Source: a virus
Length of the DNA stretch: 22,117 bases
Strand: one strand, 5' to 3'
Virus record (IMG/VR): IMGVR_UViG_3300037247_000478
Span: 1 to 22,117 of that record
The position numbers were made by a program, and so were the translations under genes. Positions within the stretch are counted from its first letter, which is position 1. Each line of letters opens with the position of its first letter. Below are positions 4,272-16,586 of this stretch, one piece after another. The notes below the pieces were generated by a model. That model made no database searches. It saw only the letters and a program-made list of their open reading frames with translations, and was not told where the DNA came from.

Positions 4272-4541
4272 CTAAATAATAGTTGGTTCTCTATCACTTC
4301 TGTTTTTATATCCATCTTCATTTACACATAATGATACTTTTTCATCATCGGTTAATTGATTGTCAACTTTACCATTGCGCGACTCGTATTCATGAAGCAT
4401 TCTTTGTTTGCATTTGGTTATCTTATATTTAAGAGCTGTATCAACATCTTTAAAAATACCTTTATCAACAGCATTGGTAGCCCACTCATTATAATCAAGT
4501 AGATTGTGTTCTAAACATTTTATTTCAGATTGAGTTAACAT
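4272..4541 (-). CDS. Hypothetical protein (89 aa), tail-fibre region
   Basis: Soluble, charged and mostly helical. The N-terminal part 'LTQSEIKCLEHNLLDYNEWATNAVDKGI' and 'KYKITKCKQRMLHEYESR' resemble small phage proteins that often follow fibre genes and carry an 'ix.le...ld...Wv..a' helix followed by a 'kiz.ckkRm' helix. I do not know the function. The start has an AGGA site at good distance (TTAGGAAAAAATTTATG). A run of nine T (- strand) follows its stop codon, without a convincing GC-rich hairpin. Confidence 0.6.
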   Translation of the reverse strand: MLTQSEIKCLEHNLLDYNEWATNAVDKGIFKDVDTALKYKITKCKQRMLHEYESRNGKVDNQLTDDEKVSLCVNEDGYKNRSDREPTII

Positions 4542-4556
4542 AAATTTTTTCCTAAA

Positions 4557-5543
4557 TTAAAATTTTAAACATCCTGTAAAATAATGAACAAAAGCAGGGT
4601 TGATATCTACTGTCAATGTTCCACCGCCAAAAATTATATTTACCTTACATGTATCTCCAATATCCATTTCAGCTGGTATCGATCCATTTAGAAAAAATAG
4701 ATTTCCATTTGATGCACAAACAGTTGGTTCTAAATCTTGGAGTTGATATGTGAAGTTAGAAGTGAGTATCTGTGCAAATGCTCTTGTCGGTGTTCCAACA
4801 AAATCAGTTAATTGTACTCCGAATACAAAATCATATATTCCTTCTGTTTTAACTGTTACTATTCCTGTTGCATTGTCATAAATATTATCCCTATCAGTAA
4901 TTTCATTATTAAATATTGCTGTATAAGGTAATCCAGTCCCTGTAACATTTGTTGGAAATGATGACATATCCGCTAAAAAATAAGGTTGATTATTTATTGT
5001 ATTGATTCCAGTATTGGTTAGCTTTGATCCAAATCCTGTATCAACAAAAGTCTTAAATATAGCGTCATTCGGGCCGCCCTTAAATGATCCGCCACCATAG
5101 CCACCAGCAGTATTAATAGCCCAAGCCCAGTTAGTACCTGAGACTCCAATTGATAATGTATCTGTATTCTTTAAAAATGGTTTTGTAGTTAAAATAACAT
5201 CAGTTAAAGTATTATGCGGTGCTGTTATACCCGTTTCTTGAGATAATACAACGCCACCGCTTCCTATTCCTTCGTATATTGTGACTATAACGCTTGTTGC
5301 AGTAAGACCGGAGTTGTTTTGTATTGTTACTTTATCTAAACATCCAGTAACTCCTTGAGTAACTGATTGCCATTGATCGGAATCCGCACTTGACGCATTA
5401 TCTACTAGTTGAGATTGATCAATAGCTGAAATACCTGACGGTTTAGAAAAATTAAGTTGATTAGTAGATAAATCATTAATATTACCTATACCCTCAGTCA
5501 CAATTAATTCATCATCTAATTGTTTCCCATTAATGTTACTCAT
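4557..5543 (-). CDS. Tail fibre/receptor-binding protein with C-terminal C1q/TNF-like domain (328 aa)
   Basis: Residues 1-45 are a short linker. Residues about 50-170 form a beta-sandwich-like block ('SDQWQSVTQGVTGCLDKVTI', 'VTIYEGIGSGGVVLSQETG', 'LKNTDTLSIGVSG', 'WAWAINTAGGYGGGSFKGG'). This recalls carbohydrate-binding-type beta modules of bacterial surface proteins. Residues about 190-328 read as a C1q/TNF-like jelly roll: 'YTAIFNNEITDRDNIYDNAT' then 'GIVTVKTEGIYDFVF', 'GDTCKVNIIFGGGTLTVDI' and a final 'FTGCLKF'. Such domains form trimeric fibre tips that bind receptors. The C-terminal domain is clearly related to that of the next gene upstream. AGGAAA precedes the ATG. Confidence 0.7.
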   Translation of the reverse strand: MSNINGKQLDDELIVTEGIGNINDLSTNQLNFSKPSGISAIDQSQLVDNASSADSDQWQSVTQGVTGCLDKVTIQNNSGLTATSVIVTIYEGIGSGGVVLSQETGITAPHNTLTDVILTTKPFLKNTDTLSIGVSGTNWAWAINTAGGYGGGSFKGGPNDAIFKTFVDTGFGSKLTNTGINTINNQPYFLADMSSFPTNVTGTGLPYTAIFNNEITDRDNIYDNATGIVTVKTEGIYDFVFGVQLTDFVGTPTRAFAQILTSNFTYQLQDLEPTVCASNGNLFFLNGSIPAEMDIGDTCKVNIIFGGGTLTVDINPAFVHYFTGCLKF

Positions 5544-5559
5544 AATAATTTCCTATAAT

Positions 5560-6333
5560 CTATTGTTTGATTAATAAATACCCTGAAAATTTAACATCGA
5601 AAGCCCCGTCAATATCTACAGTAAGTGTACTACCGCCAGCTAAGGTGTTAACTCTTACAGTATCTGCAGCATTAAGTTTTGTCAATAAACTACCTGTTAA
5701 GCTAACTCTTGTTGCTGTTACAATGTTAGATGGATCGCCTCTCCATATCCTCGGAAGTTCGCTTGTTGTTTGAAAGTATAAATCTAAGAAGTTATGAGCC
5801 ACTAAATCACTGTAGGTAACTTGAGTGTTAAATAAATAGGTTCCTGTAAATGGGGCGGTAAAAATTCCTGTAGTATTATCATAATTACTTCCAATATCTT
5901 GTATCTCATTATCAAAAACAATCGTATAAACCGTTGCTCCATCTCCCGTGACATCTGACTTTGTTCCGGCAGATGCTTCAAATAGAGAAAGAGCTGGCGC
6001 AGCTGCTGAAAAATCATACCATGCTATTAATTCATCGGTAGTAAGAAGTATTAATCCACCCGGATCATTCCAAGTCAAAGCTGTTCCTGAAAAGGTATAA
6101 TCAGCCGGATTTGATCGAAGTTGCCCATTTAAAAATAATCCAAAGGCTGATGTGCCACTAGGTGTTTGACCTAATGTAAAAGCAGTCTGTCCATCCGATG
6201 TAATAGTTAATATTTCTTGATTAGCATTTAATGTTGAGTGTGTATCGTCTACATACCCTTTGGTTGTGACAGTATCATTATCTGCAACTCCTGTACTAAC
6301 TAGCATCTGTTCTGGTCTTAATTCATTCGCCAT
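5560..6333 (-). CDS. Tail fibre/receptor-binding protein with shared module and C1q/TNF-like tip (257 aa)
   Basis: Residues 1-38 are a short N-terminal region ('TTKGYVDDTHSTL') of the type used in virion attachment. Residues 40-109 are a beta module (DGQTAFTL, 'FLNGQLRSNPADYTFSGTAL', 'IAWYDFS') that is also present in the 360-aa fibre. Residues 115-257 form a C1q/TNF-like domain ('YTIVFDNEIQDIGSNYDNTT', 'GIFTAPFTGTYLFNTQV', 'AADTVRVNTLAGGSTLTVDI', 'FSGYLLIKQ'). The domain order (attachment, spacer module, trimeric tip) supports a fibre or fibre-tip role outside the cell. AGGAG precedes the ATG; the gap to the preceding gene is 2 nt. Confidence 0.75.
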   Translation of the reverse strand: MANELRPEQMLVSTGVADNDTVTTKGYVDDTHSTLNANQEILTITSDGQTAFTLGQTPSGTSAFGLFLNGQLRSNPADYTFSGTALTWNDPGGLILLTTDELIAWYDFSAAAPALSLFEASAGTKSDVTGDGATVYTIVFDNEIQDIGSNYDNTTGIFTAPFTGTYLFNTQVTYSDLVAHNFLDLYFQTTSELPRIWRGDPSNIVTATRVSLTGSLLTKLNAADTVRVNTLAGGSTLTVDIDGAFDVKFSGYLLIKQ

Positions 6334-7678: not shown

Positions 7679-7682
7679 GTCA

Positions 7683-7832
7683 TTACTCCGTTGTTATGAA
7701 AGTTCCGCTTTCAGTTGTGATTCTCTTTCCGCTTTCTGTCGTGATAAAACCTGTCGCTGGCGGAGGTGTTCCACCATGACGGTGCATAAAAAGAAAGAAC
7801 CATCCCGCTAAAGCCGATCCAATTCTTCTCAT
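7683..7832 (-). CDS. Small gene with TTESG repeats in the fibre region (49 aa)
   Basis: A complete 49-codon frame fills the gap between the 110-aa gene and the 360-aa fibre. Its ATG overlaps the preceding stop (TAATG). A perfect AGGAGG (- strand, positions 7839-7844) lies 6 nt upstream, the best ribosome-binding site in the region. The product begins MRRIGSALAGWFFLFMHRHG, with a short hydrophobic stretch (about 7-16), then GTPPPATG. It ends in three copies of an ITTESG-like motif (GFITTESG, RITTESG, FITTE), a beta-type repeat seen in fibre-associated phage proteins. I infer a small virion or fibre-associated protein. A frame on the opposite strand here is a shadow. Confidence 0.7.
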   Translation of the reverse strand: MRRIGSALAGWFFLFMHRHGGTPPPATGFITTESGKRITTESGTFITTE

Positions 7833-14531: not shown

Positions 14532-15278
14532 TTAACCGGCCAAAATGGGCAATCCTAATCCGTTGTATCTGTCGTTCTTACGTCCTACCGTATTAATAGG
14601 TCGTGATGTCAGGTCAATATCATTACCACTCATTCGTTCATTTTCCATTTTCTGATATTCATCTTCCGTTTTATCCGTCCAGGTTCCGCCAGGGAAAAAA
14701 TTTAACAATTCCCTTGCTAACGCATAGCGCAAGAACCTTTGCTCTCCTAGAGGTACATTCGTAATGTTTTGACCACTTTCAAACTTGTCGAGATAAAACT
14801 TACCTCTTAATGTCATAAAATAAACGGATGCTGGGTCGGGATAGAGTCTTACTGTCGAAAACAGTTCGCTCTTTTCTAAAAGATAAGCTCCTGGTATTGT
14901 TCCTTCTTTTTCTAAAATGGTATGGTCAAAAAGATTCGTCCTTGTTATTTCTTGTAATGGCCAAACCACCGTTTGATTTGGATCAAATTTTAATTGCAAA
15001 TATTCAATCGAAACTAATCGGTTAGAAACTACATCCGGTGTAATCGATGGCTCATTCGAGAAAGTATATTCAGCCTGTCCTGGAACAGTCTGAAATTCTA
15101 TTTTTTTTACAAACGGGATGAGATAAGCATTCTGTGAATAACTATTAATTAAATCGTTAAGACGTCTTATTCCCTTTGTAATATAACGACCAGGAATAAC
15201 TTCATTATCATCAAACTCACCAATCATATCGTGAGCTTCTTCAACTAATTCATTAACCGTTTGATTAGTTTGCGTCAT
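14532..15278 (-). CDS. P22 gp4-like tail accessory (head-to-tail connector) protein (248 aa)
   Basis: The N-terminal helical block 'TVNELVEEAHDMIGEFDDNE' with 'GIRRLNDLINSYSQNAYLIP' is followed by the strand motif 'IEFQTVPGQAEYTF'. This is the usual beginning of gp4-type adaptors that bind below the portal ring. The helix 'GEQRFLRYALARELLNFFPG' near residue 190 fits too. P22 gp4 is shorter (166 aa), so this version has an insertion or extension in the middle (about 85-170). The start has a GGGAAT site only, and lies 22 nt after a three-hairpin array that may affect expression. Confidence 0.8.
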   Translation of the reverse strand: MTQTNQTVNELVEEAHDMIGEFDDNEVIPGRYITKGIRRLNDLINSYSQNAYLIPFVKKIEFQTVPGQAEYTFSNEPSITPDVVSNRLVSIEYLQLKFDPNQTVVWPLQEITRTNLFDHTILEKEGTIPGAYLLEKSELFSTVRLYPDPASVYFMTLRGKFYLDKFESGQNITNVPLGEQRFLRYALARELLNFFPGGTWTDKTEDEYQKMENERMSGNDIDLTSRPINTVGRKNDRYNGLGLPILAG

Positions 15279-15300
15279 CTATTTATTCCCAGTGGTAGAA

Positions 15301-15380
15301 TGGGGGCAAGATATCTCCTACCCCCAGCAACAGGTAAGATGTTTCCTACCCGCTTCTGGGGGTAATATGTCTCACCCCCA
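15301..15380 (-). other. Three tandem related hairpins between coat and gp4-like genes
   Basis: The 114-nt gap 15279-15392 holds three related inverted repeats spaced about 28 nt. Unit 1 is 15301-15326 (TGGGGG/CCCCCA arms). Unit 2 is 15331-15352 (GGTA/TACC, degenerate). Unit 3 is 15357-15380 (a perfect 7-bp stem TGGGGGT/ACCCCCA with a 10-nt loop). Loops share a core like AAGATATCTCCTA. In mRNA sense the array begins 12 nt after the coat stop. No U-run follows, so it is not a standard intrinsic terminator. It could attenuate, protect or process the coat transcript. Confidence 0.75.
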
Positions 15381-15392
15381 AACCTTAATCTC

Positions 15393-16586
15393 TTACGAGA
15401 TAAAACGTACTGCATACTGAGGATGCCACTTAAAGCCCATCAAGATATCAACACGGAAAATGTTGATGTCATTCTTGATATCACCTTGTCGTGCAATCCG
15501 CATAGAACACAGCGCTTTTTTATCGATAGCCACATGAGAATCACTGCCATAGATTTTCTCAAGAGGCGGCGAAACGATATCAAGCGATTTGCGCGTATAA
15601 CCCACACTCACATTGTGAGAAGCCAAGAATGTAACGGCTAAACCATCAGCCAACGGAATGCTTACATTTTGTCTTGGGTTAGTTGGATCGGAGATAATAG
15701 TCGGAGCAATAGGCACAGGCGCATCACCAGCACCATCAGACGTTACGTTAGCGGTAACGATGAAGTCCATTACTTGACTCGTATCTCGTCTGCCGATAGG
15801 TGTTACAGAATTAACCGTAGCTACTCTGAAAATATCACCTTCAGTCGCAACTAGAGTTGTGAATGGGAAACCCTTCATATTAATAACGGCACCGCTGCTG
15901 ACCGTTCCATCAATTAGAACGGAACCGCCAGGAGCACCCGCTACTTGTCTAGCCAATGCTTGCGCTTGATACATATCAAATATATCCAGATGGCCTAAAG
16001 CGCCGCGCTCTGAGATATCTTTATTCAACATGTCATTGAAGCTATTTTGCAAAGAGCCTTTTAAAGTAGAGGTATCAAAAGGATTAAGCGCCATGTATGA
16101 CATTTGGGTGGGCATCATTAGATACGTCATCTTTGCATTAACATTAGCTATAGCTTGATAAGTATTGATAGGAGCACCGGCAGTACCAGAAGTAAAATAA
16201 AGTTGAGTTCTTGCTTGTTCAGCAATATCAGTTTCAGCTTTAAATTTAAGTTCCTGAATCATGTCATCAATATAACGTTCTTTGAATTGTCCAATAGACA
16301 AAGTTAAATCTTTGGTATTGAACTCAATAGCTACATTATATTGATGTGCAATCGTAAGCGTTTCAAATTGCTCATCAGTTGCTTGTATAGAAGCAACACG
16401 ACCGTCATCAGCTCGGTAGTGATTTTGTTTGCGAATATCGACCGATTGCCCTCGCTTGTATGTATCGCGTCCAAATTCTCCTTCGAATTGACGATTGCCG
16501 CTCATCAAAAATGGGAGTTCGTCCTGAAATACTGCTAGAGCTAATTCAGTAACTGCTTTAGTGGTTAAAATAGTATTAGCTACCAT
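15393..16586 (-). CDS. Major capsid (coat) protein, P22 gp5-like (397 aa)
   Basis: The N-terminus 'MVANTILTTKAVTELALAVF' followed by QDELPFL is close to the P22-type coat family (HK97 fold). Conserved family-like stretches include 'RKQNHYRADDGR', 'TIAHQYNVAIEFNTKDLTLS' and 'FKERYIDDMIQELKFKAETD' (spine-helix region), and a C-terminal 'DILMGFKWHPQYAVRFIS'. P22 coat has 430 residues, so this one is slightly shorter; whether it keeps the inserted I-domain cannot be judged by eye. It assembles on the scaffold encoded just upstream. The start overlaps the scaffold stop (TAATG), with AAGGT upstream. It is followed by the hairpin array at 15301-15380. Confidence 0.92.
   Translation of the reverse strand: MVANTILTTKAVTELALAVFQDELPFLMSGNRQFEGEFGRDTYKRGQSVDIRKQNHYRADDGRVASIQATDEQFETLTIAHQYNVAIEFNTKDLTLSIGQFKERYIDDMIQELKFKAETDIAEQARTQLYFTSGTAGAPINTYQAIANVNAKMTYLMMPTQMSYMALNPFDTSTLKGSLQNSFNDMLNKDISERGALGHLDIFDMYQAQALARQVAGAPGGSVLIDGTVSSGAVINMKGFPFTTLVATEGDIFRVATVNSVTPIGRRDTSQVMDFIVTANVTSDGAGDAPVPIAPTIISDPTNPRQNVSIPLADGLAVTFLASHNVSVGYTRKSLDIVSPPLEKIYGSDSHVAIDKKALCSMRIARQGDIKNDINIFRVDILMGFKWHPQYAVRFIS

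Follow-up and report, generated by a model that had tools for sequence, protein, structure and literature searches.

What an array of strong RNA hairpins does inside a phage late operon, directly behind the gene whose product is needed most, is the question raised by the locus described here. The virion of phage P22 is built from hundreds of coat subunits and about a dozen gp4-type subunits, and all of them are supplied by one late message. A hairpin lies between the coat and gp4 genes in most P22-type phages, and in the virus studied here there are three. The window, that is, the whole stretch of DNA that was analysed, is a virus record of 22,117 bases for which the phage collection contained no close match.

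The minus strand of the window carries a P22-type morphogenetic operon with genes for the terminase large subunit, the portal (a match to P22_portal, E = 5.6e-116), the scaffold, the coat, a gp4-type adaptor, and a gp10-type closure protein. The gene directly 5' of the hairpins (15393–16586, minus strand, 397 amino acids) encodes a P22-type coat (major head) protein and matches both PHROG 283, major head protein (E = 1.4e-42), and the Pfam family P22_CoatProtein, PF11651 (E = 9.8e-17). Next after it comes the gene for a gp4-type head-tail adaptor or tail accessory factor (14532–15278, minus strand, 248 amino acids), whose product shares 35% identity with its counterpart in the nearest relative, locus L025, and 19% with the tail accessory factor of Shewanella phage X14 (E = 1e-6). 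The 114 nt between the two genes form the sole long gap of the late operon, where the other gene spacings range from -26 to +45 nt, so that the next longest gap is 45 nt. The original prediction had counted two long gaps, but the other one, 7679–7831, is nearly filled by a 49-codon open reading frame (ORF; 7683–7832, minus strand) behind an AGGAGG motif, and the coat–gp4 gap alone remains. This ORF, which was absent from the ORF list, has a repeated ITTESG motif close to its end. At the far side of the operon, rightward ORFs, one of which ends at 2490, converge on the leftward late genes, which end at 2497; 6 nt separate the stop codons at 2490–2497, and there is no clear bidirectional terminator.

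Structure and kinship of the three hairpins

Three tandem, related hairpins had been predicted behind the coat gene, and three are present on the minus strand, each with 11 pairs and with loops of 6, 4, and 4 nt. The array begins 10 nt past the coat stop codon in the direction of transcription. Unit 1 (15355–15382, minus strand) has the structure UUUGGGGGUGA-GACAUA-UUACCCCCAGA, with 11 pairs and about -17.8 kcal/mol. It is followed by unit 2 (15329–15354, minus strand), AGCGGGUAGGA-AACA-UCUUACCUGUU, whose 11 pairs include three G-U pairs and give about -12 kcal/mol, and by unit 3 (15301–15326, minus strand), UGGGGGUAGGA-GAUA-UCUUGCCCCCA, with 11 pairs and about -19 kcal/mol. The limits first drawn for unit 3 stand, while those of units 1 and 2 have been revised to the values given here; the spacing, put at about 28 nt, measures 26 and 28 nt, and the middle unit, described as degenerate, keeps 11 of 11 pairs as a hairpin.

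Folding of the gap RNA, which had been proposed as a check, bore out its stability. The predicted folding energy of the transcript strand is -55.9 kcal/mol versus -32.6 ± 3.6 kcal/mol in dinucleotide shuffles (z = -6.56), none of 200 shuffles being equally stable, and the gap is the lowest-energy 114-nt stretch of the window on both strands (-55.5 kcal/mol; window-wide mean -19.0, s.d. 6.7). The array had no match in Rfam at E values up to 1. An intrinsic terminator consists of a G-C hairpin and then a U-rich tract, and such a tract follows none of the three units, the lack of which the original prediction had also noted: behind unit 3, the 8 nt after its final G-C pair read AUUCUACC, and the sequences behind units 1 and 2, AGCGGGUA and GCUGGGGG, contain one U in 8 nt each. 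A terminator scan left the array unreported and returned 13 terminators in the window versus 11.8 in shuffles, which is no excess.

The three units resemble one another closely. Between units 2 and 3, 16 of 19 positions agree, a score that none of 5000 shuffles of one unit equalled; the same count (0 of 5000) was obtained for units 1 and 3, which share a long match with a 2-nt indel, and 13 of 5000 shuffles scored as well for units 1 and 2. Since these matches extend to positions in and beside the loops, pairing does not fully account for the similarity of the units. Seven stem positions differ between units 2 and 3, yet all 11 pairs are kept, two of the changed pairs having changed on both sides (double compensation) and three on one side. 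Random substitution starting from unit 3 kept all pairs in 114 of 200,000 trials, and a transition-biased null did so in 1121 of 200,000, odds that take substitutions as independent and are based on one pair of units in one genome. The compensatory changes that the original prediction had called for are found here between the units. All 33 pairs are standard in the transcript; on the complementary strand only 26 of 33 are, because seven pairs are G-U. This strand bias of pairing points to an RNA element made from the minus strand, not a DNA palindrome. An operator or packaging site acting as a palindrome in DNA is unlikely, as 7 of the 33 pairs are G-U and are broken on the other strand, and the packaging signal that had been considered at the outset is disfavoured on the same ground.

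These comparisons support an origin of the array by tandem duplication, in which one G-C-rich hairpin would have been duplicated locally and the copies would have drifted with their pairs kept. Of the repeat-derived origin suggested at first, local duplication is the part supported. A repeat dispersed in the host was disfavoured by pattern scans of 84,980 species genomes; the unit pattern matched once in these genomes (a haloarchaeon) and once, in coding sequence, in viral contigs, and both matches are consistent with chance.

As had also been noticed, the arms of unit 1 can pair with those of unit 3. The resulting long fold (15301–15380, minus strand) encloses unit 2 and has 32 pairs, interrupted by one asymmetric internal loop and one 1×1 mismatch. 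It is the predicted minimum-energy structure, at -55.5 versus -52.2 kcal/mol for the three local hairpins. When the RNA was grown in silico from 5' to 3', hairpins 1 and 2 formed before unit 3 existed, and the best path found from three hairpins to the long fold climbs 14 kcal/mol; for both reasons we expect the three-hairpin form to predominate while the RNA is being transcribed. That the two folds make up a two-state device, with three short protective hairpins in fresh RNA and one long RNase-cleavable helix later, seems to us highly improbable; if it were true, the ratio of coat to tail message would shift over the infection.

Post-coat gaps in related phages

There were no near phage records, and single-protein scans with the coat, portal, and terminase gave no relatives. 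P22-type loci were collected from the phage collection and, by portal alignment, from viral contigs, the choice of relatives depending on how similar their portals were to that of the window and on similarity in the coat, and their coat genes were placed by profile. Portal alignment gave 80 loci, and alignments between the window and L025 gave one further locus, L106; dereplication at 70% coat identity left 27 loci, window included. In these 27 non-redundant P22-type loci the 70 nt 3' of the coat gene have a median folding energy of -22.1 kcal/mol versus -12.7 kcal/mol at 192 other gene ends of the same loci (Mann-Whitney p = 1e-8), a comparison that mixes coding and non-coding downstream sequence, for which reason the gaps were also examined alone. 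With gap ends set by a simple start-codon rule plus a few manual settings, 21 loci have a gap of at least 35 nt after the coat gene, and in 19 of them the script scored a hairpin. The remaining two, L058 and L062, escaped the script and fold into stems with a long span or a large loop. Behind coat genes with short gaps the script found a hairpin in none of six loci. A scan with a DNA pattern of the array layout returned 38 loci, all unrelated, none of which encodes a P22-type coat.

In the 8 nt behind the 19 scored hairpins there are at least five U in seven cases, four in six, and three or fewer in six. The 13 hairpins with at least four U fit termination in those phages, and the six with three or fewer imply that strong termination need not be the function common to all. 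Single G5/C5 stems resembling those of the window occur in L018, L021, L033, L040, L097, and L102, and a related triple array occurs in none of the other sampled loci. The relatives' hairpins share their position and, in several cases, G5/C5 stems, and they are too short and divergent to align past the stem; a MAFFT alignment of the gaps misplaces the stems, and no covariation was counted from it. In the annotation of L021 (Manatee Spring phage, MW202674), the coat gene (4493–6008) is split into two P22 coat pieces separated by a small ORF, which might reflect an insertion or a sequencing error.

The nearest relative, L025 (38% identity in the portal and 44–46% in the coat), has neither a gap nor a hairpin behind its coat gene. 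Instead, a 124-amino-acid ORF of unassigned function (L025 10345–10719) begins right after the coat stop codon, and the element is therefore dispensable over that distance. We also observed a single G5/C5 hairpin in post-coat gaps of about 50–57 nt in L033, L040, L097, L100, and L102, and gaps of 15–27 nt without a hairpin in L007, L032, L039, L044, L056, L063, L074, L075, and L076. The occurrence of hairpin-bearing and hairpin-free contigs among related P22-type phages suggests repeated gain or loss. The place and kind of the element recur, and its copy number, sequence, and even presence vary. A search of related genomes for the same element behind their coat genes, which the original prediction had proposed, thus recovered a recurrent post-coat hairpin but not a conserved sequence or copy number.

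Possible roles of the array

Among the functions first listed for the array, the comparative data support a post-coat regulatory hairpin acting in protection, partial attenuation, or both, and they weigh against a plain intrinsic terminator in this phage, in line with the original prediction, which had judged the array not to be a standard terminator. The role that we favour, tentatively and at close to an even chance, is that of a protector of the coat mRNA 3' end that works by analogy with the malE-malF element, with or without weak termination. During synthesis of the late transcript, the three hairpins would fold immediately after the coat stop codon. The portion of the message for gp4 and the tail would be cut and degraded from its 3' end, and the hairpins would halt the 3'-to-5' exonucleases, with the tandem copies as backup barriers. 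The coat message would then outlast the rest, and its longer life would provide the most needed protein in excess. We favour protection because the units lack a U-tract and because hairpins without U-tracts are documented behind the most needed genes of operons.

Next comes a leaky intra-operon terminator, or attenuator, at which some polymerases would stop after the coat gene and leave fewer messages for gp4 and the tail. This is a possible reading, and one that could act together with protection: the array lies in the same place as 't coat' of Sf6 and the putative terminator of phage L (PMC8022706), and the U-rich tails of 7 of the 19 scored hairpins (at least five U in 8 nt) point the same way. 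Against it stand the missing U-tract after every unit of the window and the silence of the terminator scan on the array. By established rules, efficient intrinsic termination without a U-tract is unlikely. The other readings are less likely than these two. RNase III cuts double-stranded RNA at intergenic sites of T7, and cleavage of the long 32-pair fold might similarly part the coat message from the tail message. Such processing would suit the predicted energy minimum with its asymmetric internal loop, but we consider it unlikely, as a fold of this kind is open to any three tandem related hairpins, hairpins 1 and 2 would form first and leave the 14 kcal/mol climb ahead, and most relatives have a single, shorter hairpin. 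Even less probable is a host or phage RNA-binding protein that would occupy the three loop regions and control gp4 translation or the coat message. The loops are unlike in length and sequence, Rfam offers no match, and it is their place, not their loop sequence, that the relatives' hairpins have in common, although the units do share loop-flanking sequence and their repetition would suit cooperative binding.

Two further readings were weighed. In one, the gap is not a gap but a small gene: a 46-codon frame (15275–15415, minus strand) is open across the whole gap, runs through the array, and overlaps the gp4 start in an ATGA, and a small gene separates coat from gp4 in both L025 and P22. However, the ATG of the frame has no ribosome-binding motif upstream, the repeats are spaced at 26 and 28 nt, neither of which is divisible by three, and its codon score of -0.12 per codon is lower than any obtained for 38-codon pieces of the large genes of this phage (mean 0.17, minimum -0.09; off-frame mean -0.26), and we give this reading the least credence of all. 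In the other, the array has little or no function and is a chance-expanded hairpin tolerated in the gap. The absence of the array from L025 and the presence of the hairpin in some related freshwater contigs but not in others would agree with this; it is nonetheless very doubtful in view of the pairs kept despite divergence, the strand bias, and the recurrence of a hairpin at one place. As for protection and termination, three hairpins without a U-tract are a natural variant that parts these two candidate roles, which makes the question directly testable.

Comparison with known systems

Post-coat stem-loops have been annotated in several P22-type phages. In P22 (NC_002371) a putative stem_loop lies at 6102–6119 behind gene 5, with similar ones noted in HK97 and lambda, and in Sf6 (NC_005344) the hairpin at 6147–6173 is annotated 't coat', a likely terminator. 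In phage L a putative intra-operon terminator closes the procapsid module; partial termination is one proposed role, and according to the authors it is not known what such intra-operon elements do (PMC8022706). Like these elements, the array is a strong G-C structure within the late operon, a few nucleotides past the coat stop codon, and it precedes a gp4-type gene, as they precede such a gene or a small gene ahead of it. It differs from them in having three tandem copies rather than one, in its 114-nt gap as opposed to about 40–60 nt, in its lack of a U-tract, and in its optional long fold. The array thus shares with them the position behind the coat gene, in the only sizeable gap, and, because it consists of three hairpins and not a single one, we file it as a variant of the P22-type post-coat stem-loop rather than as a plain member. 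Our best reading is that it represents a tripled version of that element.

The tandem, related palindromic units between genes also recall REP/BIME elements. In contrast to those, and with the pattern used, no dispersed copies of the array turned up in the virus or in the 84,980 species genomes. The malE-malF element likewise belongs to a dispersed family, and the array does not. The likeness to malE-malF lies elsewhere, in one or more stable hairpins without a U-tract behind the gene needed most in a polycistronic message. Among E. coli operons whose 5' gene is stabilised, a stable hairpin with no U-tract immediately precedes 26 of the 34 stable 3' ends; malE-malF serves as the model for differential decay of this operon-internal kind (PMC5927463). 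The array has the sequence features of a protective hairpin of this kind, being stable, free of a U-tract, and located behind the most needed gene, whereas malE-malF lies on the E. coli chromosome, where protection has been shown experimentally. A further parallel is offered by Clostridial cellulosome operons, in which stem-loops take part in selective RNA processing and stabilisation (PMC4423207). There the processing sites have been mapped; in both cases the stem-loops lie at the 3' ends of genes that are highly transcribed, within operons supplying the parts of one large complex in unequal amounts (PMC4423207).
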